Origin: Nonlabens xylanidelens
GTDB lineage: Bacteria; Bacteroidota; Bacteroidia; Flavobacteriales; Flavobacteriaceae
Assembly (NCBI RefSeq): GCF_002934445.1
Contig: NZ_PTJE01000003.1
Coordinates: 248,001-312,000 of the forward strand
Reading direction: 5' to 3'
Length of the DNA: 64,000 bases
Shown: positions 424-60,710 of the stretch, in pieces
Layout: each line of letters begins with the position of its first letter
How positions within the stretch are numbered: the stretch's first letter is position 1
Program-made: the position numbers and the translations under genes
The notes under the pieces: model-generated
Database searches by the model: none
The model's input: the letters and a program-made list of their open reading frames with translations, nothing else
What the model was told of the DNA's origin: nothing

Positions 424-1606
424 CTACGATATCTTTTGCTACTTCGGTTTTCGGTTTAGTCTCAAATCTTGAAACATTTTTATTCTTATCTATAATCGCA
501 ATTTTATTAGTGTCTACACCAAATCCAGCACCTTTATCTCTCATAGAGTTTAATACTAGTAAATCGGTTTGCTTCTTTTCCGCTTTCGCGAAAGCGTGCT
601 CTAATTCATTCTCTGTTTCTAAAGCAAAACCTACTAAAAATGGTTTTTGAGTCATAGCTCCAACACTAGCTAAAATATCTGGATTCTTGACTAACTCAAT
701 AGTTAACGTATTAGACTTCTTTTTTATTTTTTGATCAACAGGATTTGCTGGTCTATAATCTGCTACAGCCGCACTAAATATAGCAACATCTGTAGTAGCA
801 ACCATGGAGTGTACTGCATCATACATTTGCTGTGCACTTTTAACGTCTACTCTATCTATGAGTTCATGATCTGTCTTAACATGACTAGGCCCCATAATTA
901 ATTTAACCGACGCACCTCGATTTGCTAATTCTAACGCAATTGCAGCGCCCATTTTACCACTACTATGATTACCTATAAAACGTACAGGATCGATAGGCTC
1001 ATATGTTGGACCAGCTGTAATTAGGCAAACTTTATCTTTTAATGGTAATTTACTAGAAATCTCTTTTTCAACAAAACTAACGATCTCTTCTGGCTCTGCC
1101 ATACGGCCTTTACCAGACAAACCACTAGCTAGCTCTCCATCACCTGCAGGAATCATAAGATTACCGTAAGCGTTGAGTTGATCAAAATTATTTTGTGTAG
1201 AAGGATGTTTATACATGTCCAGATCCATTGCTGGAGCATAATAAACAGGACATTTTGCACTACAGTAAACTGCTAGCAACAAATTATCTATAGTGCCATT
1301 TACCATTTTACTCATGGTATTTGCGGTAGCAGGCGCTATAATCATTAAGTCAGCCCAGAGACCTAATTCTACATGATTATTCCACGTATCATTATCATCT
1401 TCTTGATTTGTAAAATGACTTAAAACAGGGTTTTTAGAGAGAGTAGATAAAGTAAGTGGTGTCACAAACTCTCTGGCAGCTGGTGTCATAACCACCTTAA
1501 CAGCAGCGCCCGCTTTAACAAGCAGGCGCACTAGATAAGTAGTTTTATAAGCAGCTATACCACCGGTTACACCTAGCAATACATTCTTACCACTTAATAC
1601 AGACAT
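398..1606 (-). CDS. coaBC: Bifunctional phosphopantothenoylcysteine decarboxylase / phosphopantothenate-cysteine ligase
   Basis: CoaBC carries out two successive steps of coenzyme A synthesis: CTP-dependent coupling of cysteine to 4'-phosphopantothenate (CoaB) and FMN-dependent decarboxylation (CoaC). The 402 residues match the normal fused length. The CoaC flavoprotein half begins with GVTGGIAAYK (about 12-21) and contains PAMDLDMY. The CoaB half starts near residue 190 and has ITAGPTYEPIDPVRFI and NHSSGKMG. It lies 12 bp after rpoZ in the bamD operon. The iterated palindrome at 581-596 encodes AFAKA at about residues 337-342, in an Ala/Lys-rich helix of CoaB where homologues also have basic residues, so the enzyme is probably intact. 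Confidence 0.96.
   Translation of the reverse strand: MSVLSGKNVLLGVTGGIAAYKTTYLVRLLVKAGAAVKVVMTPAAREFVTPLTLSTLSKNPVLSHFTNQEDDNDTWNNHVELGLWADLMIIAPATANTMSKMVNGTIDNLLLAVYCSAKCPVYYAPAMDLDMYKHPSTQNNFDQLNAYGNLMIPAGDGELASGLSGKGRMAEPEEIVSFVEKEISSKLPLKDKVCLITAGPTYEPIDPVRFIGNHSSGKMGAAIALELANRGASVKLIMGPSHVKTDHELIDRVDVKSAQQMYDAVHSMVATTDVAIFSAAVADYRPANPVDQKIKKKSNTLTIELVKNPDILASVGAMTQKPFLVGFALETENELEHAFAKAEKKQTDLLVLNSMRDKGAGFGVDTNKIAIIDKNKNVSRFETKPKTEVAKDIVDEIIKKIL
581..596. repeat. Iterated palindrome copy 1 (CGCTTTCGCGAAAGCG), inside coaBC
   Basis: Exact 16-bp palindrome, read as AFAKA in CoaBC. It belongs to the family of 15 copies described in the findings. Confidence 0.95.
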
Positions 1607-1618
1607 AATTTTATTAAA

Positions 1619-1945
1619 TTAACTTTCAGTAGAACTTGTGTCTCTAAAATAGATTTTACCTTCTAACCATTCTTCAACTGCGATAGCAGCAGGTTTAGGT
1701 AAACGCTCATAAAATTTAGAAACTTCTATTTGTTCTTTATTTTCAAAAACCTCTTCTAGAGAGTCGTTGTAAGTAGCAAATTCTTCTAGTTTTTCAACAA
1801 GTTCTTCTCTTACATCAGTATTGATCTGTTCCGCACGTTTTGCGATAATAGAAATCGCCTCATACATATTACCTGTTGGAGCAGTTAATGCATCACGGTT
1901 ATAAGTAATAGTCGTGTTAGGAGCTGTTAGGTTTTTAGTATCCAT
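1619..1945 (-). CDS. rpoZ: DNA-directed RNA polymerase omega subunit (Bacteroidota type)
   Basis: A small 108-residue protein with the Rpb6/omega-like core: NMYEAISIIAKRAEQI followed by REELVEKLEEFATYND. Omega helps assemble and stabilise RNA polymerase by binding the beta' subunit. The Bacteroidota form is longer and more divergent than the enterobacterial one and has an acidic C-terminal half, as here. It starts 2 bp after the bamD stop and is followed by coaBC after 12 bp, so it is in the same transcript. The adjacency to coaBC is conserved in the phylum (family knowledge). Confidence 0.9.
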   Translation of the reverse strand: MDTKNLTAPNTTITYNRDALTAPTGNMYEAISIIAKRAEQINTDVREELVEKLEEFATYNDSLEEVFENKEQIEVSKFYERLPKPAAIAVEEWLEGKIYFRDTSSTES

Positions 1946-1947
1946 TG

Positions 1948-2760
1948 TTATATTTTACTTGTATTCTTAGAATTATAATCCTCTATTTTAGCGTGTATAT
2001 TGTCGGCATCTTCTTTATACTCACTATCAGGATAGCGTTTTGCAAAGGTATCATAATATTTCTTAGCAAGAGCTAGTCTTTCAGGAACTAAGTTAGAAAA
2101 ACTATTCATAGCATATTCATATTGAGATTCTAGCAGATAATACTGAGCATCATCTTGATATTCTGAACCTGGATGATCTACTATAAAATTCTCAAACGCA
2201 CTTATTGCTGAAATATAACCACCTCTAAAGTTACCAAAATGATGGTACTGTTTTGCCGTCTCGTATGCTTTTTTATCTAGCTTAGACCTTAATTCATCTA
2301 CCAGTAGGTTAGTCTCGTCAGCAAACTGACCAGAAGGATAAAGGTTAATATATTCCTGCAGTTTAGCAAGCGCTATATTCGTATCATTTTGATCTTTTGA
2401 ATATATAGGAGACATTTGATAATGACTCTTTGCAGCCATAAACAAAGCAAGTTCTGCATTAGGGTTTGCTGGGTGAGATTGTATAAAACGCTCATATTGA
2501 TAAGCACTATTTACATAACTTTTATCTTCATAAAGAGCCTTAGCATATTTAATAGCCATAGGCGCAGCACTATCTGTACCACGATAAACCGGTATAATTT
2601 GCTCAAAAAGCATTAAACTTTTTCCATACTTCCCTTTTGCAAACAATGTATCTATCATAGCTACTTTGACAGCGTTATCTTCTGACTTAAGAGCTTTTTG
2701 ATAAGAACTACAACTAGCAAGGGTTATGGCTACAATTAATACTACGACAAGGTTTTTCAT
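1948..2760 (-). CDS. bamD: Outer membrane assembly lipoprotein BamD
   Basis: A 270-residue protein starting with a lipoprotein signal whose lipobox LASC puts the lipidated cysteine at residue 17. The rest is helical with TPR-like units (MAIKYAKALYEDKSYVNSAYQYERFIQSHP; YLLESQYEYAMNSF; YPDSEYKEDA). BamD works with BamA to insert beta-barrel proteins into the outer membrane. It is the first gene of the minus-strand operon bamD-rpoZ-coaBC-porD and has its own TANNTTTG promoter at 2780-2787. The length is slightly above the E. coli protein and normal for Flavobacteria. Confidence 0.93.
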   Translation of the reverse strand: MKNLVVVLIVAITLASCSSYQKALKSEDNAVKVAMIDTLFAKGKYGKSLMLFEQIIPVYRGTDSAAPMAIKYAKALYEDKSYVNSAYQYERFIQSHPANPNAELALFMAAKSHYQMSPIYSKDQNDTNIALAKLQEYINLYPSGQFADETNLLVDELRSKLDKKAYETAKQYHHFGNFRGGYISAISAFENFIVDHPGSEYQDDAQYYLLESQYEYAMNSFSNLVPERLALAKKYYDTFAKRYPDSEYKEDADNIHAKIEDYNSKNTSKI

Positions 2761-2779
2761 ACTTAACTTTAATGGGCTG

Positions 2780-2787
2780 CAAATGTA
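2780..2787 (-). promoter_or_regulatory. -7 promoter element of the bamD operon
   Basis: TACATTTG on the minus strand matches the Bacteroidota -7 consensus TANNTTTG and ends 19 bp before the bamD ATG. Confidence 0.6.
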
Positions 2788-2838
2788 ACTTTTTCTATGG
2801 AAAAAGAAAGCCCGTTCACACTGCTTAACGTAATGATT

Positions 2839-3717: not shown

Positions 3718-3718
3718 G

Positions 3719-4231: not shown

Positions 4232-4257
4232 GTACTTTTACTACTTATTCTACTTCA

Positions 4258-4285: not shown

Positions 4286-5083
4286 ATGAAAAAAAATAAG
4301 TTAGTAAACAGTAAGGTACTATTTAATTATTCCGCTTTCGCGAAAGCGGTATTATTATCCACCATCTTTCTAGTTTCCTGCAGTCAGAAAGGATACCAAC
4401 TTAACAAAGTCTCAGGAAATCAAACAGCCGTAGACTCAAATTTAAAAAGCACTGAAGAAATCGAGGCTTTTATTGCCCCTTTCAAAAAGTCTCTAGACGG
4501 ACAAATGAACGAGCAGATAAGCTACAACACTACTTCAATGCATAAGAATGACTATAAACTGAATACTCCTATAGGGAATATGATGGCAGCTATAGTCAGA
4601 ACACAAGGAGAACCTGTATATAATTCTAGAACCGGCAAAAACATAGATATAGTATTACTTAATCATGGCGGTATACGTGCAGGGTTAAACGCAGGACCAG
4701 TTACCATGCGCAATGCTTATGAAATCATGCCATTTGATAACGAAATAGTTGTTGCAGAATTAAGCGGTAAACAGGTCAATGAAATGATTAATTACCTAAT
4801 AGAACGTAAAAGCGCACATCCTATAGACGGTTTGCAAATTTTACTAAATACAGACGACTCCATCCATACCGTACTTATTAATAAAAAACCTCTAGACATT
4901 AATAAAATATACACCGTTGCTACTAACGATTATCTATATAGCGGTGGTGATAACATGAGTTTCTTTAAAGGAGCACCTATTACTAAAATAGATTATAAAA
5001 TAAGAAATGCCGTTATTGATTATTTTAAAAAGGTAGACACGTTAAAATTTGAGAGAGATAACAGGTTTGACATCTTAAAGTAA
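4286..5083 (+). CDS. Lipoprotein with 5'-nucleotidase C-terminal domain
   Basis: This 265-residue lipoprotein holds only the C-terminal, substrate-binding domain of UshA-type 5'-nucleotidases: LNHGGIRAGLNAGPVTMRNAYEIMPFDN and ATNDYLYSGGDNMSFF, the latter carrying the base-stacking region. The signal peptide ends at lipobox LVSC (Cys about 32). The metallophosphatase domain is encoded by the next gene, 21 bp downstream, so the two polypeptides probably act as a complex in the periplasm on nucleotides. The order is the reverse of the fused enzyme. The palindrome at 4333-4348 adds SAFAKA in the n-region of the signal peptide. Confidence 0.88.
   Translation: MKKNKLVNSKVLFNYSAFAKAVLLSTIFLVSCSQKGYQLNKVSGNQTAVDSNLKSTEEIEAFIAPFKKSLDGQMNEQISYNTTSMHKNDYKLNTPIGNMMAAIVRTQGEPVYNSRTGKNIDIVLLNHGGIRAGLNAGPVTMRNAYEIMPFDNEIVVAELSGKQVNEMINYLIERKSAHPIDGLQILLNTDDSIHTVLINKKPLDINKIYTVATNDYLYSGGDNMSFFKGAPITKIDYKIRNAVIDYFKKVDTLKFERDNRFDILK
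4333..4348. repeat. Iterated palindrome copy 2, in a lipoprotein signal peptide
   Basis: CGCTTTCGCGAAAGCG, extended by one matching base on each side. Read as AFAKA. Confidence 0.95.
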
Positions 5084-7555: not shown

Positions 7556-7589
7556 TTTTAATTCCGCTTTCGCGAAAGCGGAATTAAAA
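7556..7589. repeat. Iterated palindrome copy 3, extended to a 34-bp perfect palindrome
   Basis: The core lies at 7565-7580 and the symmetry runs outward to TTTT and AAAA ends, 34 bp in all. It is in the gap between the convergent amtB and ligA genes, where an RNA copy would fold into a hairpin usable as a terminator on both strands. Confidence 0.95.
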
Positions 7590-11348: not shown

Positions 11349-12356
11349 ATGACTGTAGATGAGAAATACATGCAACGCTGCATACAACTAGCACAAAATG
11401 GATTAGGTACCACATATCCTAATCCGCTAGTGGGAAGTGTAATCGTTTCTGAAAACGACGAGATTCTTGGAGAAGGATGGCATAAAAAATCTGGTGAACC
11501 ACACGCTGAAGTTAACGCAGTGCTAGATGCTGAGAAAAATGGTTATGGTAAAGACGCTTTCGTGAAAGCGGTATTATACGTAAACCTAGAGCCTTGTTCT
11601 CACACCGGAAAAACTCCACCTTGCGCATCTATGATCGTAAAAAAAGGCTTTAAAAAAGTAGTCATAGGCTCTCTAGACCCACATGAAAAAGTAGCCGGCA
11701 AAGGTGTTGCTATATTAAAAGAAGTAGGCATAGACGTCACAGTGGGCGTCCTAGAAAAAGAATGCAATTTTCTTAACAAACGCTTTTTTACTTTTCATAG
11801 AAAAAAACGCCCTTATATTATTTTAAAATGGGCCGAAACTGCCGATGGTTTTATAGCGCCCGCAGAAAAAGACGAACAAAAACCAGTATGGATTACTAAC
11901 TCCTATTCTAGACAATTATCTCACCGATTAAGAGCTGAAGAAAATGCAATCCTTATAGGAGCACAAACCGTGATAGATGATAATCCATCATTAACTTGCA
12001 GGGACTGGCATGGAATAAACCCTACACGCATCGTTTTAGATTCTAGAAATACTCTAAATAAAAACTACGTTGTGTTCGATAATCAAGCACCTACTATTAC
12101 TATAGACTCTAACAATCCTGAAAACATAATTAAAGAACTCTATAACAACCAGATACAATCGGTTATTATAGAAGGTGGCTCCCGTACTATTCAACAATTT
12201 ATCGATGCTAATTTATGGGATGAAGCGATGCAATTTATGGGAACCGAAATTTTATTTTATAACGGACTGCCAGCGCCAAAAATAAATGGCTACCACACAA
12301 TTCTAGATAGAGTAACTATAAAGCAAGATGTTTTAAAAACATATCTTAACGCATGA
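11349..12356 (+). CDS. ribD: Bifunctional riboflavin biosynthesis deaminase/reductase
   Basis: RibD deaminates and then reduces the pyrimidine intermediate of riboflavin synthesis. The deaminase half has the zinc site HAEVNAV and PCSHTGKTPPC; the reductase half follows from about residue 145 (RPYIILKWAETADGFIA). The 335 residues are slightly short in the reductase C-terminus compared with E. coli. A degenerate copy of the palindrome at 11555-11570 encodes DAFVKA between the two zinc motifs, in a loop that is shorter in homologues I can recall. The stop overlaps the next gene's ATG by 4 bp, giving coupled translation. Confidence 0.94.
   Translation: MTVDEKYMQRCIQLAQNGLGTTYPNPLVGSVIVSENDEILGEGWHKKSGEPHAEVNAVLDAEKNGYGKDAFVKAVLYVNLEPCSHTGKTPPCASMIVKKGFKKVVIGSLDPHEKVAGKGVAILKEVGIDVTVGVLEKECNFLNKRFFTFHRKKRPYIILKWAETADGFIAPAEKDEQKPVWITNSYSRQLSHRLRAEENAILIGAQTVIDDNPSLTCRDWHGINPTRIVLDSRNTLNKNYVVFDNQAPTITIDSNNPENIIKELYNNQIQSVIIEGGSRTIQQFIDANLWDEAMQFMGTEILFYNGLPAPKINGYHTILDRVTIKQDVLKTYLNA
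11555..11570. repeat. Iterated palindrome copy 4, one-base variant (CGCTTTCGTGAAAGCG), in ribD
   Basis: Differs from the family at one central position (GCGC to GTGC context), so the symmetry is broken. It is read as AFVKA. Confidence 0.85.
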
Positions 12357-13219
12357 TCTGGTTATTCCTGAGTGTTATCACATCTAGTTTACTTTATGTA
12401 ATTTTCAAATATTTTGAAATTTTTAAAGTAAACACCTTACACGCTATCATCATTAATTACATTATCGCGTGCATCACAGGTTTAATATCCTATGGACAAG
12501 TACCTAATATGGAAAACATCTTACAGGCAAACTGGCTGTATTATTCGTTTTTTATAGGCGCACTTTTTATCTTTATCTTTAATATCATGGCACTTACCAG
12601 CCAGAAAAACGGTCTAACGGTAGCCGCTGTATCTGGGAAAATGTCACTTGTTATTCCTGTTGTCGCAGGAATATGGTTATATCAAGAATCTATAGGATGG
12701 ATGAAAATAGCAGGCATATTACTCGCTCTTGTTTCTGTATACCTTACTTCGGTTAAAAGTAAGGATGGACTTCAACTGGATAAAAGAACGCTTATTCTTC
12801 CTGTTATTTTATTTTTAGGAAGCGGTATCATAGACACCACTCTTAAATATGCCGAAATAAACTATGTCCCTATAGGAGAAGAATCCCTATTCAGCGCCAT
12901 GTGTTTTGCTACCGCTTTTATAATAGGTATCATCATTCTTTTGTACGAGGCGACACAAAAGCGTTTTATCAATTTAAGGTCTATAATTGCTGGTATCGCG
13001 CTAGGTATTCCTAATTATTTTTCAATTTACTTTATAATCAAATCTTTAAAAAACGGCATGGAAAGCAGTGTGGTTTACCCTATTAATAATGTGGCTACCG
13101 TTCTTTTCGCTTCTATTCTAGGCATTCTTATATTTAAAGAAAAACTTATCCCTAAGAATTACATAGGTATTATAGTGGCTATAGTTGCTATTCTTATGAT
13201 CGCTTTCGCGAAAGCGTAA
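12353..13219 (+). CDS. EamA/DMT-superfamily transporter
   Basis: A 288-residue integral membrane protein with ten predicted hydrophobic segments arranged as two EamA-like halves. The typical motif at the end of each half is present (GKMSLVIPVVAGIWLYQESIGWMKIAGILLALVSVYL; VVYPINNVATVLFASILGILIFKEKL). The transported metabolite is unknown. It overlaps ribD by 4 bp, so a link to riboflavin or a purine-derived compound is possible but unproven. The last codons are the palindrome at 13201-13216 (AFAKA) followed directly by the stop, so the C-terminal tail derives from the repeat. Confidence 0.85.
   Translation: MIWLFLSVITSSLLYVIFKYFEIFKVNTLHAIIINYIIACITGLISYGQVPNMENILQANWLYYSFFIGALFIFIFNIMALTSQKNGLTVAAVSGKMSLVIPVVAGIWLYQESIGWMKIAGILLALVSVYLTSVKSKDGLQLDKRTLILPVILFLGSGIIDTTLKYAEINYVPIGEESLFSAMCFATAFIIGIIILLYEATQKRFINLRSIIAGIALGIPNYFSIYFIIKSLKNGMESSVVYPINNVATVLFASILGILIFKEKLIPKNYIGIIVAIVAILMIAFAKA
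13201..13216. repeat. Iterated palindrome copy 5, forming the last codons of the EamA gene
   Basis: Exact copy read as AFAKA; the stop TAA follows at once. It is 12 bp from the downstream terminator. Confidence 0.95.
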
Positions 13220-15130: not shown

Positions 15131-15216
15131 TATTTGTCATCGATTTTAACAACCGGATTTCTTTGTGATTTTTAGTTCTTAATCGACCCAACTCTAACTT
15201 GAAAAAAGTAATATAT

Positions 15217-16644
15217 ATGACACTGACTGCAGAATCGGTATGGGACAATTGTCTAGCTTTTATAAAGGATAATATTGCACCCCAAGCTTACAAAACTTGG
15301 TTTGCACCTATTAAGCCGGTAAAGCTAACAGATACTGCCTTAAGTATTCAAGTACCTAGTCGTTTTTTTTATGAATGGCTAGAAGAACATTATATAAAAT
15401 TATTAAAAACTGCCTTAACACGTGAACTAGGCGAGGGAGCAAAATTGATCTATGCGATCAAGATGGAGAACCCTACAAAAGGTATGGAAGCCTTTACTGA
15501 AAAAATACCTAGTAGTAACCGCTCTATTAATAACTCGCAGTCTGTAGATGCGCCAGTTAGAAGTAAAAGTCCAGAGCTTAAGAATCCATTTATTATTCCT
15601 GGAATAAGAAATGTAAAGATCGAGTCTCAACTTAATCCTTCTTATAACTTTGAAACTTTCTTAGAAGGTGATTCTAACAGACTAGCACGTAGTGCTGGTA
15701 TGGCTGTTTCTAACAAACCTGGTGGAACTAGTTTTAATCCTCTATTAATATTCGGTGGTGTAGGTTTAGGAAAAACACATCTTGCACATGCGATAGGTGT
15801 AGGTATCAAAGAAAACTACCCTGACAAAACAGTTCTCTATATAAGTGCTGAAAAATTCACACAACAATATATTGAATCTGTACGTAAGAATAATAGAAAT
15901 GATTTTATTCACTTCTATCAAATTGTAGACGTTCTTATTGTTGATGACATTCAGTTCTTTGCAGGTAAAGCGAGTACACAAGATGTATTCTTCCACATAT
16001 TTAATCACTTGCACCAAAATGGTAAACAAGTGATTCTTACAAGTGATAAGAAACCTGTAGACATGCAGGATATTGAACAACGCTTACTTTCTCGTTTTAA
16101 ATGGGGACTTAGTGCAGAGTTGAATCATCCTGACTATGAAACTCGTGTTTCTATAATCAAGAACAAACTATATCGTGATGGTGTAGAAATGGATGATGAT
16201 GTAATTCATTATCTAGCAGACAACATTAAGACCAACATTAGAGAATTAGAAGGAGCTATTATTTCGTTAATCGCACACTCTTCTTTTAACCGCAAAGACA
16301 TTACTATAGATCTTGCTCGCAAGATTGTAGAGAACTATGTAAAGAACACAAAACGTGAGATTTCTATAGATCAAATACAACAAGTAGTAAGTGACTATTT
16401 CTCAATGGATGTAGAAACACTACAGTCAAAGACACGTAAACGTCATATCGTACAAGCGAGACAACTAGCTATGTATTTTTCTAAGAAACTTACTAAGGCA
16501 TCTCTAGCAAGTATAGGTACTCAAATAGGTAAGCGTGATCATGCTACTGTTTTACATGCTTGTAAGACTGTTGATAATCTTGCTTCTACCGATAAGCAAT
16601 TCAGTAAATATGTTGAAGATTTACATAAAAAACTTTCTAACTAG
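15217..16644 (+). CDS. dnaA: Chromosomal replication initiator DnaA
   Basis: DnaA binds DnaA boxes and opens the origin. The protein of 475 residues has the N-terminal domain I (SVWDNCLAFIKDNIAPQAYKTWFAPI), a linker, the AAA+ domain with Walker A GGVGLGKTH and Walker B VLIVDDIQFF, and the DNA-binding domain IV with RDHATVLHACKTV. The ATG at 15217 is chosen over an in-frame TTG at 15199 because homologues start at MTLTAESVW-like sequence. The neighbours are not dnaN, recF or gyrB, as is usual for Flavobacteria. A phosphatase gene follows after 8 bp. Confidence 0.97.
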   Translation: MTLTAESVWDNCLAFIKDNIAPQAYKTWFAPIKPVKLTDTALSIQVPSRFFYEWLEEHYIKLLKTALTRELGEGAKLIYAIKMENPTKGMEAFTEKIPSSNRSINNSQSVDAPVRSKSPELKNPFIIPGIRNVKIESQLNPSYNFETFLEGDSNRLARSAGMAVSNKPGGTSFNPLLIFGGVGLGKTHLAHAIGVGIKENYPDKTVLYISAEKFTQQYIESVRKNNRNDFIHFYQIVDVLIVDDIQFFAGKASTQDVFFHIFNHLHQNGKQVILTSDKKPVDMQDIEQRLLSRFKWGLSAELNHPDYETRVSIIKNKLYRDGVEMDDDVIHYLADNIKTNIRELEGAIISLIAHSSFNRKDITIDLARKIVENYVKNTKREISIDQIQQVVSDYFSMDVETLQSKTRKRHIVQARQLAMYFSKKLTKASLASIGTQIGKRDHATVLHACKTVDNLASTDKQFSKYVEDLHKKLSN

Positions 16645-19208: not shown

Positions 19209-20252
19209 TTAAAATTTTAATTTATTAGTATCCCAATTGCCCGATGTGTTACACCACAACTGTCCATTTTTAATCTCTAGTGGCGCCTCGATATTATTAG
19301 TATATAGAGAACCTGTACCTAGACCTTGTGGCATTTTATTACCTAGCGTATACGTAAATTGTGCTATAGCATTAAGGCCTATGTTAGATTCTAGTGCACT
19401 AGTAATCCACCAGTCTATATTTCTTTCTGTAGCGAGATTTATCCATTCTCTACTACTTTGAAAACCACCTACTAGAGCAGGTTTTAAGATAATGTATTGC
19501 GGTTTAATAACATCTAGACAGGCTATCTTTTCTTCTATATTATAAAGACCTATTAATTCTTCATCTAGCGCAATATCTAGCGGTGTTTGCTCACACAGTC
19601 TTGCCATATCACCCCATTGGCCTTGTTTAATAGGCTGCTCGATGCTGTGTACATCGTACTTTGCAATTTCTTCTAGTTTACCCAATGCATTTTGAGGTGT
19701 AAAAGCTCCATTTGCATCAACTCTTATAGTAATCTCGCTTTCGCGAAAGCGAGAACGTATCAATTTTAATAGACTCATTTCTGCTTCAAAATCGATAGCA
19801 CCTATCTTCATTTTAATGCAATCAAATCCAGCTGTTAGTTTTTCTTCTAGCTGTTGCATCATAAAATCTTGGTTTCCCATCCACACGAGCCCGTTGATAG
19901 AAATAGCATCTTGTCCTTCTGTAAACATAGACGGAAACAATGTAAAGGGATCGCTGGATTGCAAGGACCTCATCGCCATTTCATAACCGAATAAAATAGA
20001 AGGCCATTTTTTTAAAGCCTCCATCATCTCTACCGGTGATAAATTAATATGATCACAAGTCCATTGCAGTTGTTTTTCAAATTCTGGTCTGTCATCTATA
20101 GAAAGACCAGAAAACATATTCACCTCTCCTACACCTTGTTTATCACCATTATCGATAATAAGAAACCAAGTGTTTTTGGTTTTTAAAATACCACGAGAAG
20201 TTCCTGCCGGTTGTTTAAATTCTAAAACGTATTTCTGGAAATGTGCTTTCAT
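19209..20252 (-). CDS. menC: O-succinylbenzoate synthase
   Basis: A 347-residue enolase-superfamily enzyme that dehydrates SHCHC to o-succinylbenzoate in menaquinone synthesis. The catalytic Lys pair is in DCIKMKIGA, metal ligands are in RVDANGAF, SIEQP and ALDEEL, and the second Lys in IILKPALVGG. It heads the menC-CPBP-menE operon. The palindrome at 19736-19751 is read here in the third frame as RFRES, directly before the conserved strand ITIRVDANG, in a segment where homologues also carry charged residues, so function is probably kept. Confidence 0.92.
   Translation of the reverse strand: MKAHFQKYVLEFKQPAGTSRGILKTKNTWFLIIDNGDKQGVGEVNMFSGLSIDDRPEFEKQLQWTCDHINLSPVEMMEALKKWPSILFGYEMAMRSLQSSDPFTLFPSMFTEGQDAISINGLVWMGNQDFMMQQLEEKLTAGFDCIKMKIGAIDFEAEMSLLKLIRSRFRESEITIRVDANGAFTPQNALGKLEEIAKYDVHSIEQPIKQGQWGDMARLCEQTPLDIALDEELIGLYNIEEKIACLDVIKPQYIILKPALVGGFQSSREWINLATERNIDWWITSALESNIGLNAIAQFTYTLGNKMPQGLGTGSLYTNNIEAPLEIKNGQLWCNTSGNWDTNKLKF
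19736..19751. repeat. Iterated palindrome copy 6, inside menC
   Basis: Exact copy, symmetry extended to TCTC...GAGA (19733-19754). This is the only copy read as RFRES. Confidence 0.95.
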
Positions 20253-21112: not shown

Positions 21113-21128
21113 CGCTTTCGCGAAAGCG
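21113..21128. repeat. Iterated palindrome copy 7, intergenic
   Basis: Exact 16-bp copy about 30 bp upstream of the left operator arm of the PadR cluster. Confidence 0.95.
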
Positions 21129-25998: not shown

Positions 25999-26547
25999 AT
26001 GCCACAAGTATATTTAAATCCTGTTACCAAAGAAAAAGCTACTATACTCAAAACTAGCGCACAAACTAACGGCGCTTACACGCTTATAGAGGTAGAGTTA
26101 CAACCGGGCGGCGGTAATCCTATTCATTTTCACGAGCAATTTACGGAGGATTTTTATCCAGTAATAGGTACTTTAGGCGTTCATTATTTAGGAAAAGAAA
26201 TTTTATTAAAACCTAATAAAAATTTTAAAGTCCCTTTATTAGATACACATCGATTTTACAATCCTACTGATGAAATTATCGTGTTTAGAGCTCGATTAGA
26301 ACCAGGACAGCCCAATTTTGAAAATTTTATGGCAGTTCTTTTTGGACTAGTCAGCGATGGTAAAACCTTTGGAAAGAACCAGATGCCGTACAATCCTTTT
26401 CACGCTATTTTATTACTCCACTGGGGTGATACTCAGGTAGATCATTTTCTATTTAGATGGATAAAACCACTGTTGTCTGTTATGGTTACGCTTTCGCGAA
26501 AGCTAGGATATGAAAAACATCTTCTCAAAAAATATAAAACGGTTTAA
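25999..26547 (+). CDS. Cupin-domain protein
   Basis: A 182-residue single-domain cupin: GGGNPIHFHEQFTEDFYPVIG is the first metal-binding motif (G-x5-H-x-H-x4-E pattern), and VPLLDTHRFYNPTDEIIVFRARL the second. The substrate is not evident. The C-terminal 60 residues are helical. The palindrome at 26489-26504 is read as TLSRKLG near the C-terminus. It stands alone between trxB (divergent) and nhaC. Confidence 0.82.
   Translation: MPQVYLNPVTKEKATILKTSAQTNGAYTLIEVELQPGGGNPIHFHEQFTEDFYPVIGTLGVHYLGKEILLKPNKNFKVPLLDTHRFYNPTDEIIVFRARLEPGQPNFENFMAVLFGLVSDGKTFGKNQMPYNPFHAILLLHWGDTQVDHFLFRWIKPLLSVMVTLSRKLGYEKHLLKKYKTV
26489..26504. repeat. Iterated palindrome copy 8, inside the cupin gene
   Basis: Exact GCTTTCGCGAAAGC core at 26490-26503; the outermost base on the right is T instead of G. 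Read as LSRK. Confidence 0.93.
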
Positions 26548-31130: not shown

Positions 31131-31150
31131 TCCGCTTTCGCGAAAGCGGA
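31131..31150. repeat. Iterated palindrome copy 9, in the peroxiredoxin promoter
   Basis: Perfect 20-bp palindrome (core CGCTTTCGCGAAAGCG at 31133-31148) ending 3 bp before the -7 element, where the spacer and -33 region would lie. Confidence 0.95.
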
Positions 31151-34510: not shown

Positions 34511-35845
34511 TTATAAAAGTCCACGAGCTTTAATCTCTAGGTATTTATTTATGGTATTTACCGTCAGGTTTTGAGGTTCGGTAAGTATGGTTTGAATACC
34601 ATATTTATTAAGTTCGTTAACGATTAAACGCTTTTCATAGATAAACTTCTCGGCAATGGTTTGTTGATAAATCTCATGTGTGGTGGTAGCAGGCTTTTTA
34701 ACCAACTCTTTTAATTCTGTATTATCAAAAAATATAACCACTAATAAATGATTCTTTGCGATAGCCTGCAAGTATGGAAGCTGCCTGTGCAACGCATCCA
34801 TAGTTTCAAAATTAGTATATAAAAGCAATAAACTACGTTGCGTTATCGTACGTTTGATATCTATGTAGAGTCTACCAAAATCACTTTCCTTAAAATCGGT
34901 ATCTAGATTGTACAGCGTCTCTAGAATTAGATTCATTTGAGAGGCTCTTTTTTGCGCCATTACCTGATTAGATAATTTATCTGAATAACTAAACATACCA
35001 GCCTTATCGCCTTTTTTTAAGGCAATATTTGAAATAACTAGCGTAGCATTAATTGCATAATCGACTAATTTTAATTCTTCAAAAGGCATTTTCATTACAC
35101 GACCTTTATCTATAACAGAGTAAACCGGCTGTGACTTTTCATCCTGAAATTGATTGATCATTAACTGGTTGCGTTTTGCACTCGCTTTCCAGTTGATATT
35201 GCGCACATCGTCTCCTTGAACATAATCTTTAATTTGTTCAAATTCCATGGTATGCCCTATTCTTCTTATTTTTTTAAGTCCAAAGTCTCTAAGCTTGTTA
35301 GTAAATGCCATTAATTCATACTTGCGCAACTGCAAGAATGATGGATAATTAGGCACCATAGCATCTTGATTAAAAGAAAATTTGCGCTGTGCTAGACCTA
35401 ATGGACTACCTACAAATACCTGTAAGCCACCATAATGATACTCACCTCTTTCTGTAGGACGCACGGTATAAGAAAACGTCTTAGACTTACCTGCATCTAC
35501 CTCATCTATGATTCTAAAATCACGCTCTTGAAACTGTATAGGTAACTCATCAATAATATTAAGAAATATCTTAGAGTTGTATTGATTTGTTATTAAAATC
35601 TCTACAGGATTCTTATCTCCATTAGATAACTTATCTGGTAAAACACGGCTTGCTTTTATAGCATCTCTGGTTCTATATAGTAATAAGATATCTATTAAAA
35701 GCAACCCTATTATTATAAATAAACCTATTTTAAGGTAATCTATCAATCGTTCAAAAAAGAACGCAAACACAAATAGCACCACTAGAATACCTAGTGCTAT
35801 AAAGAAGCGTTTTTGCAAATAGAGGCTTTTAAAAAATTTCTTCAC
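34511..35845 (-). CDS. DUF58-domain protein of the MoxR operon
   Basis: A 444-residue protein with two N-terminal membrane segments (ALGILVVLFVFAFFF; IGLFIIIGLLLIDILLLY) and a DUF58 domain: MEFEQIKDYVQGDDVRNINWKASAK is the family signature, followed by a von Willebrand A-like region. DUF58 proteins work with MoxR AAA+ ATPases. The start is GTG at 35845, which overlaps the MoxR stop (TAGTG), so translation is coupled. Confidence 0.92.
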   Translation of the reverse strand: MKKFFKSLYLQKRFFIALGILVVLFVFAFFFERLIDYLKIGLFIIIGLLLIDILLLYRTRDAIKASRVLPDKLSNGDKNPVEILITNQYNSKIFLNIIDELPIQFQERDFRIIDEVDAGKSKTFSYTVRPTERGEYHYGGLQVFVGSPLGLAQRKFSFNQDAMVPNYPSFLQLRKYELMAFTNKLRDFGLKKIRRIGHTMEFEQIKDYVQGDDVRNINWKASAKRNQLMINQFQDEKSQPVYSVIDKGRVMKMPFEELKLVDYAINATLVISNIALKKGDKAGMFSYSDKLSNQVMAQKRASQMNLILETLYNLDTDFKESDFGRLYIDIKRTITQRSLLLLYTNFETMDALHRQLPYLQAIAKNHLLVVIFFDNTELKELVKKPATTTHEIYQQTIAEKFIYEKRLIVNELNKYGIQTILTEPQNLTVNTINKYLEIKARGLL

Positions 35846-37005
35846 TATCTAGGGATCTCTATGTTTTCTAATATTTGTGCCACAGCTCTATCTGCTGTTA
35901 AGCCTTCCATTTCTCTCTCTGGGGTTAATATAATTCTATGACGCATTACCGCAGTAGCGATATACTTAATATCATCTGGCGTTACAAAATCACGTCCCAT
36001 GATAGCCGCATATGCTTTAGAACCATTCATAATCGCAATAGATGCACGAGGTGAAGCACCTAGATATAGATTAGGATTATTACGCGTGTCTAAAATAATC
36101 TTTGCGATGTACTTTATAAGGTTATCTTCTATGACGATCTCCTTTACTGTTTTTTGATACTTTTCAATTTCGCTTGCAGACAGTATACCATTTACAGAAG
36201 ATTCTGCATTTACATTTTTACGTGCGTGATGGTCAGTTAAAATCTGTATTTCTTCTTCTAGATTAGGATAACCTACATTAATCTTAAATAAGAAACGGTC
36301 TAATTGTGCTTCTGGCAGTCTATAAGTACCTTCTTGCTCTACAGGGTTTTGTGTTGCAAATACTAGAAACGGTGCGTTGAGATGGTATTCTTTACCATCT
36401 ATAGTCACCTGACGCTCTGCCATTGCTTCAAATAATGCCGCTTGTGTTTTTGCAGGTGCTCTGTTAATCTCATCAATTAATATGATGTTAGAAAAAATAG
36501 GACCAGGTTTAAATTCAAACTCATTGTTTTTCATAGAAAAAACTGAAGTTCCTAAAATATCTGATGGCATTAAATCTGGCGTAAATTGTATACGCGAGAA
36601 TTCTACTTGCATGGTTTTTGCAAGCAACTTTGCTGTTACCGTTTTTGCAACACCAGGCACACCTTCTATTAAAGAATGACCGTTTGCAAGAATAGACACG
36701 ATTAATAAATCGATCATTTCTTCTTGTCCCACGATTACTTTGCGCAATTCTGTTTTGATTTTATAAACTGCCGCACTTAAATGATTCAAATCCAGTCTAT
36801 TTTTAAATTGTAAAGAAGTAGCTGGATCTTCTACCTGTGGCTGTTGTGGATCTGGAATAGATGGTGGTTGTTCCGCTTTCGCGAAAGCGTTACCATCATT
36901 AACTTCTTCACCCTTATGAACATATTGCTCTTGCGCAGGCTGCTGTGGTTGCTGGCTAGGGTTATTATCTTGAGGAATCTGTGAGTGATTATTAGTATCT
37001 TCCAT
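35845..37005 (-). CDS. MoxR-family AAA+ ATPase
   Basis: A 386-residue protein whose last 320 residues are a MoxR ATPase: EGVPGVAKTVTAKLLA (Walker A), NIILIDEINRAPAKTQAALFEAMAE (Walker B) and ATQNPVEQEGTYRLPEAQLDRF (sensor 1 region). MoxR acts as a chaperone with vWA/DUF58 partners. The first 65 residues form a Pro/Gln-rich disordered tail, unusual for the family; the palindrome at 36874-36889 falls in this tail and encodes AFAKA. It overlaps the DUF58 gene by one base. Confidence 0.95.
   Translation of the reverse strand: MEDTNNHSQIPQDNNPSQQPQQPAQEQYVHKGEEVNDGNAFAKAEQPPSIPDPQQPQVEDPATSLQFKNRLDLNHLSAAVYKIKTELRKVIVGQEEMIDLLIVSILANGHSLIEGVPGVAKTVTAKLLAKTMQVEFSRIQFTPDLMPSDILGTSVFSMKNNEFEFKPGPIFSNIILIDEINRAPAKTQAALFEAMAERQVTIDGKEYHLNAPFLVFATQNPVEQEGTYRLPEAQLDRFLFKINVGYPNLEEEIQILTDHHARKNVNAESSVNGILSASEIEKYQKTVKEIVIEDNLIKYIAKIILDTRNNPNLYLGASPRASIAIMNGSKAYAAIMGRDFVTPDDIKYIATAVMRHRIILTPEREMEGLTADRAVAQILENIEIPR
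36874..36889. repeat. Iterated palindrome copy 10, in the disordered tail of MoxR
   Basis: Exact copy read as AFAKA; flanked by TTC on the left. Confidence 0.95.
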
Positions 37006-41698: not shown

Positions 41699-42321
41699 AT
41701 TTTATAGAAATTATTGATTTTCTAGGGATTATTGCCTTTGCCATTTCTGGTGCACTCGCAGCTTTTTCTAAAAAACTAGATCCATTTGGGATAGTCATCA
41801 TAGCCTTTGTCACAGCCGCTGGTGGTGGTACTTTAAGAGATGTTCTTATAGGAGTGCAACCCATCTCGTGGATGCGTAACATGAACTTGATCTACACCAT
41901 ACTAGCTTGTGTGGTCATCACTTTTATCTTCAGGGCCCAACTAGCAAAACTGCGTAAAACTCTCTTTTTATTTGACGCTATCGGTATAGGTCTATATACA
42001 GTAGTAGGTCTAGAAATGGGACTGGCCGCTGGTTTACATCCATTAATCTGTATTATTATAGGGTGTATCACTGCTTGTTTTGGTGGTGTGCTCAGAGATA
42101 TTTTGATTAATGAAATTCCCGTTATTTTCAGGAAGAATATCTATGCTACGGCTTGTATTATAGGTGGTATGGTATACTTTATACTTTTAAAGTTCAACTT
42201 ACCTAACAATATTGTTTTTACAGCATCTGCAGTGACGGTAATATTAACACGTGTGCTTGCCGTGGTCTTTAAAATAAAACTACCATCGCCTTACTCTAAA
42301 AATGAAATTATAAATAAGTGA
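41695..42321 (+). CDS. TRIC/UPF0126-family cation channel-like protein
   Basis: A 208-residue membrane protein with seven hydrophobic segments and an internal duplication: VTAAGGGTLRDVLIG in the first half and TACFGGVLRDILINE in the second. Bacterial members of this family form trimeric cation channels. Its physiological role is unclear. Its start overlaps the RDD stop by 4 bp, so the two are cotranscribed. It is convergent with a rhomboid gene, with a palindrome copy in the gap. Confidence 0.92.
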   Translation: MNFIEIIDFLGIIAFAISGALAAFSKKLDPFGIVIIAFVTAAGGGTLRDVLIGVQPISWMRNMNLIYTILACVVITFIFRAQLAKLRKTLFLFDAIGIGLYTVVGLEMGLAAGLHPLICIIIGCITACFGGVLRDILINEIPVIFRKNIYATACIIGGMVYFILLKFNLPNNIVFTASAVTVILTRVLAVVFKIKLPSPYSKNEIINK

Positions 42322-42329
42322 TTTCATTA

Positions 42330-42351
42330 TTCCGCTTTCGCGAAAGCGGAA
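42330..42351. repeat. Iterated palindrome copy 11, intergenic
   Basis: Perfect 22-bp palindrome (core CGCTTTCGCGAAAGCG at 42333-42348) between the stops of two convergent genes. No other terminator is seen there. Confidence 0.95.
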
Positions 42352-42378
42352 CCAATTATCCAACTATAAAGAAATAAA

Positions 42379-47877: not shown

Positions 47878-47990
47878 CTCATTCTATTCAGTTTAAAAAG
47901 AACTCTTTGACATCATTTTAACAATGCATTAACGCCACATGTAAATCAATAAGTCTTTTTTTGTGGCTATCTCTATTATATAGTGCCTTT

Positions 47991-49451
47991 ATGATTGATT
48001 ATATCTCGCTTTCGCGAAAGCGAAACTATAAAATTCTTTACATCGCTTTACTGGCGGTGTCTCTAGCAGCTTTAATAAGTTGTGAAGAAGAAAATAGTGG
48101 CGAGACTTCTATTGTATTAACTGGAAAAATTATAAATCCTAAGGCCGATTTTATCGTTCTAAGAAACTATTCTGGAGTTAGAGACACGATTAAACTAAAT
48201 AAAAAAGGTGTGTTTCTCAAGGAATATGAATCTATAACGCCTGGATTATACACTTTTGCACACCCCTCTGAATACCAATCTATTTATATAGGTTATGGGG
48301 ATACCTTAAGGTTAAGATTAAACACAAAAGCATTTGATGAGTCTCTTGCTTTTACTGGTGCCGCTGCAAAGGAGAATAACTATTTGATCAATTTATTTCT
48401 AGAAATTGAAAAAACAAATAGAAATTTAATGAGTGAGTACCATCGTGAGCCTAGTGACTTTAAAAAAATGATCGATGAGCTGACTGCAAAGCGAATCAAA
48501 TCATTAAAGAAAACAGCAAAGAAAAATGGTTTTCAAACCAACTTTGTGGAGAACACAGAGAAGATTATCAGATTTAGCTCTTGGTCTACACTAGAGCGAT
48601 ATGCCTTCACACATTATGGCAAAGGTGATATTTTAAAGAGTGATGTATTACCGTCTAATTTTTATTCTTACAGACAGCATCTAGAAATATGTGACACAAA
48701 ATTACTTAACAACTATGCTTATAGACCTTATGTAACCTCATTAGTTTCTAATGTTGCTTTATATAACTGCGCTCGTAAACATGGGTCTGGTGAGGCTGTA
48801 GATAGACATGGTTATGAATACCGTAAAGAGAAATTACATGTTATAGATAGCCTTTTTACTAATGAAGAATTAAAAGGTTTATTTGCAGGTATCGAGACTA
48901 GAAACTTTATTAGAAGTAGAAAAAATGCAGGAGAAATTAATGATCTGGTTGCAGAGTTTCTAGAAATATCACAAGACGAGCAACTCAATAATCAAATTAC
49001 TAAAATAGCTGCAACTTATATTAATCTAGATCCAGGAAATAAATTACCTGATTTTAAGATTTATGACGACCATAAGAATATCACTCAACTATCTTCTAAC
49101 ATAAATGGTTTATCTGTTCTTTTTTATTGGTCTAATAAAAATGAATCTTATGCTTTAAGGGTGCATAGAAAGGTGAATGAGTTGCGATATAAATATCCAG
49201 AGATTAAATTTATAGGTATTAATCTAGATAACCCTGAGAGCGACGCCTGGAAAGATGCTAGAGAACAATTTGGTTTTAATATGGCAACCGAATTCCAACT
49301 GGTAAACAGTCAGTCCATAAGCAAGCAACTCGCTTTGAGAAATGATAATAGAAGTATGGTTATAGCACCAGGACTTACTATTCTAGACCCTAACATTAAC
49401 CTGTTTCATTATAAAATAGAAACTACTTTATTAGGTTATTTAAGTAGATAA
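47991..49451 (+). CDS. TlpA-like lipoprotein without a CxxC active site
   Basis: A 486-residue lipoprotein (lipobox ALISC). The N-terminal part is a DUF4369-like beta domain (IVLTGKIINPKADFIVLRNYSG), the middle is helical and the C-terminal 130 residues form a thioredoxin fold: LDPGNKLPDFKIYDDHKN and LSVLFYWSNKNESYALRVHRKV. Where TlpA proteins have WCxxC this one has WSNKNE, so it cannot act as a disulfide reductase. The ATG at 47991 is used; an upstream TTG at 47961 would place a hydrophobic stretch before the signal. The palindrome at 48007-48022 lies in the n-region (SLSRKRN). Confidence 0.82.
   Translation: MIDYISLSRKRNYKILYIALLAVSLAALISCEEENSGETSIVLTGKIINPKADFIVLRNYSGVRDTIKLNKKGVFLKEYESITPGLYTFAHPSEYQSIYIGYGDTLRLRLNTKAFDESLAFTGAAAKENNYLINLFLEIEKTNRNLMSEYHREPSDFKKMIDELTAKRIKSLKKTAKKNGFQTNFVENTEKIIRFSSWSTLERYAFTHYGKGDILKSDVLPSNFYSYRQHLEICDTKLLNNYAYRPYVTSLVSNVALYNCARKHGSGEAVDRHGYEYRKEKLHVIDSLFTNEELKGLFAGIETRNFIRSRKNAGEINDLVAEFLEISQDEQLNNQITKIAATYINLDPGNKLPDFKIYDDHKNITQLSSNINGLSVLFYWSNKNESYALRVHRKVNELRYKYPEIKFIGINLDNPESDAWKDAREQFGFNMATEFQLVNSQSISKQLALRNDNRSMVIAPGLTILDPNINLFHYKIETTLLGYLSR
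48007..48022. repeat. Iterated palindrome copy 12, in a lipoprotein signal peptide
   Basis: Exact copy read as LSRK, 5 codons after the start. It supplies the positive charges of the signal n-region. Confidence 0.95.
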
Positions 49452-55270: not shown

Positions 55271-55286
55271 CGCTTTCGCGAAAGCG
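55271..55286. repeat. Iterated palindrome copy 13, intergenic
   Basis: Exact copy, extended to TTTCGC...GCGGAAA with one break in symmetry, 8 bp after the glnN terminator. Confidence 0.95.
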
Positions 55287-57146: not shown

Positions 57147-57186
57147 GGAAGTAAGATAACTTAAAATCCTCGATAAGTTCCAACAG

Positions 57187-57213
57187 ATGCTGAAACGAGT
57201 TCAGCATGACAGT
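57187..57213. repeat. REP-like hairpin, right of the GIY-YIG gene
   Basis: ATGCTGAA-ACGAG-TTCAGCAT followed by GACAG. It matches the left copy in inverted orientation, including an upstream CGATAAG (57172-57178 region). Confidence 0.72.
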
Positions 57214-57231
57214 CTCTTTTCTTTTTTTTTG

Positions 57232-57735
57232 TTACGCTCTATTTATTTGCGCATCCCCATAATCCTTCAACATTTCCTTCACAACCTCCAACTTCGGCTC
57301 AATATATCGTTTACAAAACGGTGCTTCTGGTCTTGTCTTGTAATAATTTTGTATCGATTCTCGCGATGCTTCAAAAGATGAAAACGGAATGATATGAGTG
57401 ATGTATTTTTCGTTCCGCTTTCGCGAAAGCGAGAACACAATATCCTCTATCCTACTTTTCATTTCTTCATCAAAATAATAAATAGCACTGCGGTAATCCT
57501 CACGCCTGCTGTGTTCCTTAGTCGAAGAATGTGTCTGCAAATGAATATCGATTAATTTTTCTAGATTCATAGAATCAGTAAGATGGACGATTACGGCCTC
57601 ACTTCTAGTTTCAAATGGTGTGACACTAGAGACATAACCTTGTTCTACTCTCACCACACCGGTAATCGACTGAAATACAGCTTCTGTACACCAATGACAG
57701 CCACCTCCTAAGCCTAGTTTCAAATCTGTTTTCAT
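57232..57735 (-). CDS. msrA: Peptide-methionine (S)-S-oxide reductase (MsrA family)
   Basis: A 167-residue MsrA: GLGGGCHWCTEAVFQSITGVVRVEQGYV is the active-site region with Cys 13, where most enzymes have GCFWC and this one has GCHWC. TRSEAVIVHL and THSSTKEHSRREDYRSAIYYFDEE follow as the substrate-binding part (the family usually reads DPTTxNRQGNDxGxQYRS). The palindrome at 57416-57431 is read as LSRK. The ATG at 57735 is chosen over an upstream TTG. The altered motifs suggest a divergent paralogue. Confidence 0.85.
   Translation of the reverse strand: MKTDLKLGLGGGCHWCTEAVFQSITGVVRVEQGYVSSVTPFETRSEAVIVHLTDSMNLEKLIDIHLQTHSSTKEHSRREDYRSAIYYFDEEMKSRIEDIVFSLSRKRNEKYITHIIPFSSFEASRESIQNYYKTRPEAPFCKRYIEPKLEVVKEMLKDYGDAQINRA
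57416..57431. repeat. Iterated palindrome copy 14, inside msrA
   Basis: Exact copy read as LSRK in the msrA frame. Confidence 0.95.
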
Positions 57736-57798
57736 AAGCAAGATTATAGTTTAAAATTAGAAGCAAATTCCGTATTTTCGCAACACTTGATATAGACC

Positions 57799-58875: not shown

Positions 58876-58973
58876 CGGCGCATGCCATGTGCCGAAACAT
58901 ATTTTCAGTTCATATATACCAATATTGACGCATCGCATCCATCAAACTCAGTAAAGGGCGGATCGCATCCGCC
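58876..58973. repeat. GC-rich hairpin array between prfA and pyrF
   Basis: First hairpin 58876-58894 (CGGCGCAT-GCC-ATGTGCCG, one G-T pair), second 58957-58973 (GGCGGAT-CGC-ATCCGCC), and a related unpaired copy between them (CGCATCGCATCC, about 58929-58940). Both hairpins are followed by GAAA. The base composition contrasts strongly with the AT-rich surroundings. Confidence 0.72.
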
Positions 58974-58988
58974 GAAATAACTACCTCT

Positions 58989-59798: not shown

Positions 59799-59828
59799 GT
59801 AACGGTCATTTAAAAATTTTATCCAATA

Positions 59829-59880
59829 TTTCATAATCCCTTATCTAATTCGTTTAAGAATTAAATAAGGGATTATGAAA
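59829..59880. terminator. Long hairpin between convergent pyrF and methyltransferase genes
   Basis: A 16-bp perfect stem (TTTCATAATCCCTTAT / ATAAGGGATTATGAAA) continued by TAATTC/GAATTA after one mismatch. It lacks a strong T-run, so it may act as a processing or stabilising structure as well as a terminator. Confidence 0.7.
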
Positions 59881-59909
59881 TTATAATTGAATTAACCTTT
59901 ACGGCTATT

Positions 59910-60710
59910 TTAATTTTTAAAAATCATGATCAAACGATCTGAAGTTTCTTGATCGTAATCTTCTAACTGGTAATTACCATAAACATCTATTAACTCTACT
60001 CCTGCTGCTGCAAAATAACTTTGAAAATCTTCTAAAGTTAATGCACTTACACGCTCAGTAAAATGGTAATCATGATCGTTATCTCTAAATTTTATGTCTT
60101 TGTAGATAAAGCCGTTTTCAAAACGTCGTGAGTTATGAAAGGTGATTCCTTCTTCTGTTTTAGAGTTTTCTTTTACTAGGTTTTCAACTACATAATGTGC
60201 GTTCATAAAATCTATAACCGCATATCCACCTGGTTTTAAGTTTGACTTAATCGCCTCGATCGTTTTTAGATTATCTGCAGCATCATCAAAATATCCAAAA
60301 CTGGTAAATAGATTAAAAACAGCATCAAAAGTCTGGTCATAAGGAACGGTCATGTTGTGCACATGAAACTCTATTCGAGAAGCATCTATAGGATTTAAAT
60401 CTTTAATTCCTTCATTAATAGAAGGTGTAGAAGTGGTTTTTCTTAATTCCGCTTTCGCGAAAGCGATACTACTATCACTCAAATCAACACCAGTTACACG
60501 ATATCCTAATTTATTAAGATACATACTATGTCGTCCACGACCACAGGCTAAGTCCATGATATGAGAGTCTTTACTCAACTTTAAACGTTGTGTAAGTCGT
60601 TGCATAAACTGTCCAGCCTCTGTGTAATCACGATCTCTATATAAGATGTGATAATACGGTGTGTCGAACCAACTAGCGAACCATTGATCTGATGTGTTTA
60701 CATTGCTCAT
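59910..60710 (-). CDS. Class I SAM-dependent methyltransferase
   Basis: A 266-residue methyltransferase of unknown substrate: MDLACGRGRHSMYLNKLGYRVTGVDLSDSSIAFAKAE holds the SAM-binding motif I and the acidic end of strand 2, and FDAVFNLFTSFGYFDD and LKPGGYAVIDFMN follow as motifs II and III. The start at ATG 60710 (MSNVNTSDQW) is preferred to an upstream ATG, because a -7 element (60717-60724) lies between them. The palindrome at 60450-60465 encodes AFAKA directly after the SAM loop, a position where homologues also have A-K residues. Confidence 0.88.
   Translation of the reverse strand: MSNVNTSDQWFASWFDTPYYHILYRDRDYTEAGQFMQRLTQRLKLSKDSHIMDLACGRGRHSMYLNKLGYRVTGVDLSDSSIAFAKAELRKTTSTPSINEGIKDLNPIDASRIEFHVHNMTVPYDQTFDAVFNLFTSFGYFDDAADNLKTIEAIKSNLKPGGYAVIDFMNAHYVVENLVKENSKTEEGITFHNSRRFENGFIYKDIKFRDNDHDYHFTERVSALTLEDFQSYFAAAGVELIDVYGNYQLEDYDQETSDRLIMIFKN
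60450..60465. repeat. Iterated palindrome copy 15, inside the methyltransferase gene
   Basis: Exact copy read as AFAKA, preceded by AATTC. Confidence 0.95.

Follow-up and report, generated by a model that had tools for sequence, protein, structure and literature searches.

A recurrent palindrome at the locus

The stretch of DNA considered here, called the window throughout, covers 64 kb of a Nonlabens xylanidelens contig (NZ_PTJE01000003.1, positions 248,001 to 312,000) and carries a perfect 14-bp palindrome, GCTTTCGCGAAAGC, in 14 exact copies and one copy with a single mismatch. These are the numbers given by the original prediction made from this DNA, whose coordinates are lower by one because they mark the starts of a 16-mer. 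The 16-mer, CGCTTTCGCGAAAGCG, is inexact at some sites, e.g., at 26490, where a T follows the core. Dinucleotide shuffles of the window, whose GC content is 0.32–0.37 per 4 kb, contained a mean of 0.07 matches at up to two mismatches and none of 100 shuffles reached 15, in agreement with the claim that chance would produce far fewer copies than are seen.

Ten copies lie inside open reading frames (ORFs) of at least 100 amino acids and five between them, also as predicted. The exact genic copies, given like all others without a strand, are found at 582..595 in the CoaBC gene (ORF 398-1606, minus strand), for which a codon alignment was made; at 4334..4347, near the 5' end of ORF 4286-5083 (5'-nucleotidase C-terminal domain); at 13202..13215, in the last codons of an EamA-type transporter gene (ORF 12353-13219); at 19737..19750 in a MenC-like gene (ORF 19209-20252, minus strand); at 26490..26503, near the 3' end of a cupin-like gene (ORF 25999-26547); at 36875..36888 in a MoxR-type AAA ATPase gene (ORF 35845-37005, minus strand); at 48008..48021, near the 5' end of ORF 47961-49451, whose TTG start is uncertain; at 57417..57430 in a gene of the PMSR family (ORF 57232-57741, minus strand); and at 60451..60464 in a methyltransferase-domain gene (ORF 59910-60743, minus strand). 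The copy at 57417 falls outside genes under a stricter gene caller of our own. The one-mismatch copy, GCTTTCGTGAAAGC, occupies 11556..11569 in a RibD-like gene (ORF 11349-12356), and the aligned place is an exact palindrome in four other genomes (G005, G009, G022 and G003). The intergenic copies, all exact, are located at 7566..7579, 21114..21127, 31134..31147, 42334..42347 and 55272..55285. The dnaA gene was recognised by eye at 15199-16644 (tblastn 15217-16626), which places it between the neighbouring palindromes at 13202 and 19737; since dnaA lies in the window, the window is probably close to the replication origin.

The core is part of a longer motif

Within 484 kb of the genome from which the window was taken (G000, 3.28 Mb in 21 contigs) there are 105 exact copies, 13 with one and 4 with two mismatches, while a half-swapped control palindrome was absent from a 400-kb part of it. 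Of the 94 TTCGCGAA words in 400 kb of this genome, 88 were complete 14-mers, and the site is therefore all-or-none in G000. Near-matches are commoner elsewhere, with 19 one-off and 27 two-off against 76 exact copies in G494, and 15 and 20 against 50 in G234.

Sequence preferences continue outside the core. In G000, position 1 is C in 93% of copies, T is favoured at positions 3, 4, 10 and 13, and the 5' flank is poor in C (0.056 at positions 4–18 vs a background of 0.18), with the 3' side mirroring it as a G-poor flank; the signal fades between approximately positions 19 and 30. This flank grammar is found in genic and intergenic copies, somewhat more strongly in the latter, and is shared, with differences in detail, by the Nonlabens genome G019 and by G494. 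Judged from these flank statistics, the motif appears to span some 50 bp, the 16-bp core and its flanks together, and to be symmetric, with a strand-specific preference. A full footprint of this kind, inferred from many copies and consisting of the core and ~18 bp per side, would occupy 42316..42365 in the window.

Abundance in three lineages of Flavobacteriaceae

The whole of G000 contains 664 copies, and a control in which the pattern was read backwards gave 0. The CoaBC protein encoded in the window shares 96% identity with that of an uncultured Nonlabens and 76–80% with those of N. ulvanivorans, N. tegetincola, N. antarcticus and strain BBFL7, and the palindrome is abundant throughout the genus, with 288–857 copies in each of the 23 Nonlabens genomes searched. 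The repeat is thus not rare in the genome or in the genus, a count that the original prediction had called for. Outside Nonlabens, 35 of the 36 genomes in the same search had no copy and one had 6. A survey of 397 Flavobacteriaceae genomes, 4 of them from the window's genus, added only two with hundreds of copies, designated below as HIP-rich (rich in a highly iterated palindrome): G250 with 857 and G234 with 408. No copy was found in 317 of the other 391 genomes, and 1–19 copies were found in 74. All nine genomes of g225, the genus of G250, carry 369–905 copies, and each of the 12 genomes compared around G234 carries none. In a further sample of 50 named genomes, five Nonlabens including BBFL7 had 487–611 copies, nine others had 1–13, and 36 had none.

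Abundance is spread over three separate lineages: Nonlabens, g225 and G234. A CoaBC tree with 51 rows requires three changes of the HIP-rich label, and the HIP-rich rows form one group in 0 of 200 bootstrap trees; the strongly supported branches by themselves force one change only. Neither the 14-mer nor its inner 12-mer was found in the open-licence text of PubMed Central (PMC), where sequences split by spaces would escape, and none of the works on Nonlabens and palindromes in that text concerned this repeat, as judged by title and start of abstract.

Spacing along the chromosome

The even spread noticed in the window extends well beyond it. Among the first 100 copies (99 gaps) of contig C1 of G000 the mean gap is 4,455 bp with a coefficient of variation (CV) of 0.44, compared with 0.98 for random placement and 0.68 as the lowest of 20,000 simulations; none of the 99 gaps is shorter than 1,268 bp, where ~24 would be expected. 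This short-range repulsion survives stricter null models applied to 400 kb, one keeping the gene/intergenic preference (23 expected) and one limiting each gene or gap to a single copy (17 expected). Gaps below 1 kb among the first copies listed are likewise scarce in G250 (2 vs 20.3 expected), G494 (1 vs 9.8; g225), G234 (0 vs 12.5) and the Nonlabens genome G004 (4 vs 14.5); the deficit in BBFL7, based on 21 gaps, is only suggestive.

The replichore distribution, which the original prediction had proposed to examine, revealed no bias between origin and terminus in G019: both halves hold 4.70 copies per 20 kb (20 sampled stretches, origin placed by dnaA; Spearman 0.01). The corresponding values for G234, 3.00 and 2.00 copies per 20 kb, do not differ significantly. 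Four neighbouring sampled stretches of G494 (2.36–2.88 Mb) hold 7 copies where ~15 are expected, dnaA lying outside the sample. In one 20-kb stretch of G019 (L281, G019:C1:290001-310000), which by eye resembles a region of histidine and tryptophan biosynthesis genes, the palindromes number 10, double the mean of the sampled stretches.

Gene context and conservation of individual copies

With genes called by a simple ORF caller of our own making, intergenic copies number 51 of 105 in G000 (11.1 expected), 48 of 94 in G019 (14.2 expected) and 42 of 76 in G494 (14.0 expected), so that about half of the copies are intergenic in Nonlabens and g225. Densities in tandem, divergent and convergent gaps are 0.96, 1.16 and 1.10 copies per kb in G000, 1.29, 1.25 and 1.81 in G019, and 0.73, 0.49 and 0.97 in G494. 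The commonest reading frame through a genic core encodes Ala-Phe-Ala-Lys (27 of 54 in G000).

The copy in CoaBC indicates how a genic site can arise. At this place the residues outside Nonlabens are approximately NAKGKLKRKNL, while all 21 Nonlabens compared have AFAKA; the comparison also took in 41 other rows, including G250 and G234, both without the palindrome here, and minus-strand rows of the alignment were scored by residues and not by codons. The exact 14-mer is present in 20 of the 21 Nonlabens, the exception, G005, being one base off. AFAKA replaces the aligned residues without an indel, which indicates that substitutions created the copy and that conserved residues were given up for it. 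A transposon end, which according to the original prediction would have explained the repeat away, does not account for this copy, as it did not arise by insertion; this was the one locus examined in depth.

Once present, copies are kept. Across six species with 72–76% nucleotide identity, 25 of 27 site-by-species comparisons of in-gene copies show an exact match (6 distinct copies), as do 8 of 9 for the other copies (3 distinct copies), while control 14-mers are exact in 1.6–3.7% of coding and 3.3–9.3% of non-coding windows; conservation was scored on aligned copies only, fewer than half of 17 being aligned in the six species. These sums exclude G013, a close relative at 89% identity, in which 10 of 11 copies are exact, with controls at 28–31%. 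The suggestion of a genome-wide role at the DNA level is supported by these data on copy number, even spacing, genus-wide occurrence and conservation.

Phages and genomic islands

Two lytic phages of Nonlabens, P12024S and P12024L, each 35.7 kb long, have no copies at up to two mismatches, although ~7 each would be expected at the density of G000. Both phage sequences (L318, L319) are also devoid of TCGCGA altogether and have one annotated DNA methyltransferase gene each. In G019, no copies were found in ~13.5 kb of phage-like DNA and in 12 kb of surface-sugar-like genes, both recognised by eye; comparable gaps occur in some genomes. At least 120 viral stretches have the palindrome. Most of the 80 listed show one copy; two or three are present in L029, L043, L060 and L083, and each of three contigs is the source of more than one stretch.

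In the low-copy genomes examined the copies are often clustered. Twelve clustered stretches from nine such genomes, belonging to at least eight genera, each align with others over kilobases at ~67–97% identity, and the ORFs of five of them (three genomes), read by eye without a family search, encode heavy-metal efflux and P-type ATPase proteins. These islands share copies in homologous places with one another, with Nonlabens G019 and, at one site, with G234; one recurring pair lies 933 bp apart. Some places are decayed: among 231 directed pairwise comparisons, 150 were exact, 20 differed by one base, 18 by two and 43 by more. The island copies keep the flank grammar (C at 0.076 at positions 4–18). 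The simplest reading is that the islands matured in HIP-rich hosts and then spread. In plasmid records the island efflux gene had only distant matches (60–80% identity, 9 records). The metal-efflux islands (L239-L250, L294, L374) could serve to trace DNA exported from HIP-rich hosts.

The search for a reader protein

Candidate readers were sought in a panel of 21 genomes, 11 of them HIP-rich. A ParB paralogue comparable to Noc was rejected, as each of the 11 has one chromosomal-type ParB. So was a ParB with altered specificity: Nonlabens has GKSRSAI in place of GKNRSTI or GKKRSTI, but g225 and G234 have the usual residues, and the change does not track the palindrome. G019 encodes a further ParB-domain protein of 616 amino acids; ParB-domain proteins of ~600 amino acids (L337, L342-L345), presumably belonging to mobile elements, occur in G019 and in three of the island-bearing, HIP-poor genomes of the panel (G145, G259 and G033).

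The C5 methylase family is absent from 7 and the D12 family from 8 of the 11 HIP-rich genomes, and the N6/N4 family gave no match in 4 and stayed below the cut-off in 2. No member of these three families scores above the cut-off in G000, G009 or G494, the HsdM and Eco57I families lying outside the search. No RecC (PF04257) was found in any of the 21 genomes, HIP-rich or not, a comparison that did not extend to AddAB. Protein outliers common to the samples from Nonlabens, g225 and G234, judged by eye among at most 22 best rows per comparison, were limited to housekeeping-type proteins and the metal island. The co-occurring methylase or DNA-binding gene anticipated by the original prediction was thus not encountered among the three methylase families and ParB, and its proposal of a methylation mark is not supported, as these families are not common to the HIP-rich genomes and G000 has no halo of short cores.

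A self-DNA recognition sequence as the preferred interpretation

We consider the palindrome to be possibly a self-DNA recognition sequence of the uptake type, an interpretation based on analogy, to which we assign a probability of roughly 0.4. A putative two-fold symmetric DNA-binding protein, predicted from the motif and presumably shared by the three lineages, would read the ~50 bp of core and flanks; DNA with one copy every few kb would be preferentially taken up and recombined; and new copies would spread by biased conversion up to about one per exchanged fragment, even at the expense of protein residues. By analogy with known systems, the outcome would be uptake or recombination of self DNA. 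We infer that ~660 sites could become fixed despite their protein cost because of a local drive such as biased conversion.

The analogy is with the DNA uptake sequence (DUS) of Neisseria and the uptake signal sequence (USS) of Haemophilus, with which the palindrome shares hundreds of copies, intergenic excess, conservation of copies and a core with informative flanks (PMC2397512 and PMC7811141). For the DUS, PMC2397512 describes high conservation, an intergenic majority, absence from recently acquired genes and a spacing that matches conversion fragments. As to recent acquisitions, the picture here is mixed: the two phages and the two G019 stretches are free of copies, yet islands elsewhere carry them. 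The palindrome differs in its host phylum, Bacteroidota, and in being known from sequence alone. Within the family, Riemerella columbina, assigned to Flavobacteriaceae by the paper describing it, prefers its own DNA in transformation (PMC7965970).

Several observations weigh against this interpretation. The uptake sequences known so far are non-palindromic and asymmetric, and we know of no competence in Nonlabens. The sequence described here is symmetric and ~4–5 times sparser than the USS of H. influenzae, which occurs about once per kb (PMC7811141). No receptor or reader candidate emerged from ParB, the three methylase families, RecC or the shared outliers, in searches of genome fractions in which one is easily missed. 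The phages P12024S and P12024L are close relatives of each other, and their host genome was outside the comparison. In G234 the flank grammar is weak and intergenic copies are not in excess (4 of 50 vs 5.8 expected). The dispersion in 20-kb bins is 0.20 in G000 but 0.79 in G019, i.e., only slightly more even than random, and gaps among the listed copies can be 10 kb long in G000 and as long as 22 kb elsewhere; with gaps of this length, short copy-free stretches prove little. Lastly, 75 loci from other genera (5–21 kb around CoaBC) had no comparable motif, which is a weak test on a small sample. Palindromic 10-mers present in three or more places of these loci were only AT-rich words, e.g., TTTTATAAAA (five in L143). 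The stretch L147 from Ulvibacter antarcticus has several 12-mers four times each in 21 kb, which suggests a different interspersed repeat in that genome.

Alternative explanations

The main alternative, which we regard as rather unlikely, is a chromosome-organising lattice, in which a dimeric nucleoid protein would bind every ~4–5 kb to hold loops, anchor DNA or load a complex, the spacing itself being the function. The even spacing and the symmetry fit such a lattice at least as well as they fit uptake: short-range repulsion and low CV are seen in three lineages, the extended motif of ~50 bp is symmetric, and placement in G000 is independent of gene orientation; the two copy-free phages also agree with it. 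The palindrome resembles Noc and SlmA sites, which are short palindromes spread over the chromosome, and its 14 bp equal the length of the Noc consensus (PMC4726725). The copies are about ten times more numerous than the roughly 70 Noc sites and, with a single chromosomal-type ParB in all 11 HIP-rich genomes, there is no Noc-like paralogue of that family; unlike both Noc and SlmA sites, they show no origin-terminus bias and no depletion towards the terminus in G019. It also seems doubtful that selection acting on a single site out of 660 would be strong enough to displace residues of an essential enzyme, and weak selection on chromosome-wide structure would explain ~660 costly sites less easily than a local drive such as biased conversion.

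A Chi-like site, at which a helicase-nuclease of the AddAB type would read the palindrome in either direction and mark self DNA for repair, appears distinctly improbable. The density is near that of Chi in Escherichia coli; the absence from the two phages, the palindromy, which makes strand bias unnecessary, and the C-poor 5' side of each strand would suit such a role. Known Chi sites are asymmetric and only 5–8 nt long, a motif of the present length is unexpected, and in the absence of RecC from the 21-genome panel RecBCD does not co-occur, AddAB not having been part of that comparison.

Very little speaks for an element of the HIP1 type, for which maintenance by an orphan DNA methyltransferase and associated repair has been proposed in cyanobacteria. 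The likeness to HIP1 drawn by the original prediction holds for the distribution, a highly iterated, evenly spread palindrome within and between genes, and the commoner near-matches in G494 and G234 would agree with it; the methylation link finds no support in the three families compared, and G000 lacks the halo of short cores. No methylase of the three families is common to the 11 HIP-rich genomes (G000, G009 and G494 having none above the cut-off), nearly all TTCGCGAA words in G000, 88 of 94, are full 14-mers, and the core of 14–16 bp with flanks exceeds the 8 bp of HIP1, GCGATCGC (PMC4390886).

That the repeat is a proliferated mobile palindrome (repetitive extragenic palindrome or miniature inverted-repeat transposable element) or bidirectional terminator can practically be set aside: palindromy, hundreds of copies, the intergenic excess and the somewhat denser convergent gaps of G019 (1.81 vs 1.25–1.29 per kb) and G494 (0.97 vs 0.49–0.73) are outweighed by the CoaBC copy that replaced aligned residues without an indel, the genic position of about half of the G000 copies, the similar density in all three kinds of gap in G000, and the T-rich sequence before and A-rich sequence after the core, the reverse of an intrinsic terminator. 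The gap densities and the CoaBC alignment likewise tell against a promoter origin.

Biological significance

Few motifs are known to be maintained by a bacterium across its whole genome. Tentatively, Nonlabens, g225 and G234 may share a DNA-binding system, probably through horizontal transfer, with a symmetric footprint of ~50 bp, for which the genome would have been rewritten, conserved residues included, into a lattice of one site per 4–7 kb; this would be the first palindromic code for self-recognition or chromosome organisation. Should the motif serve in uptake, it would represent a palindromic uptake sequence in Bacteroidota, a phylum in which we know of no proven DUS, and would provide a barcode for DNA leaving Nonlabens. 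Should it organise the chromosome, its copies would form a nearly regular lattice, and the origin of domains on the 5-kb scale could be tested in a culturable marine genus. Either reading predicts a strong sequence-specific binding protein in these bacteria.

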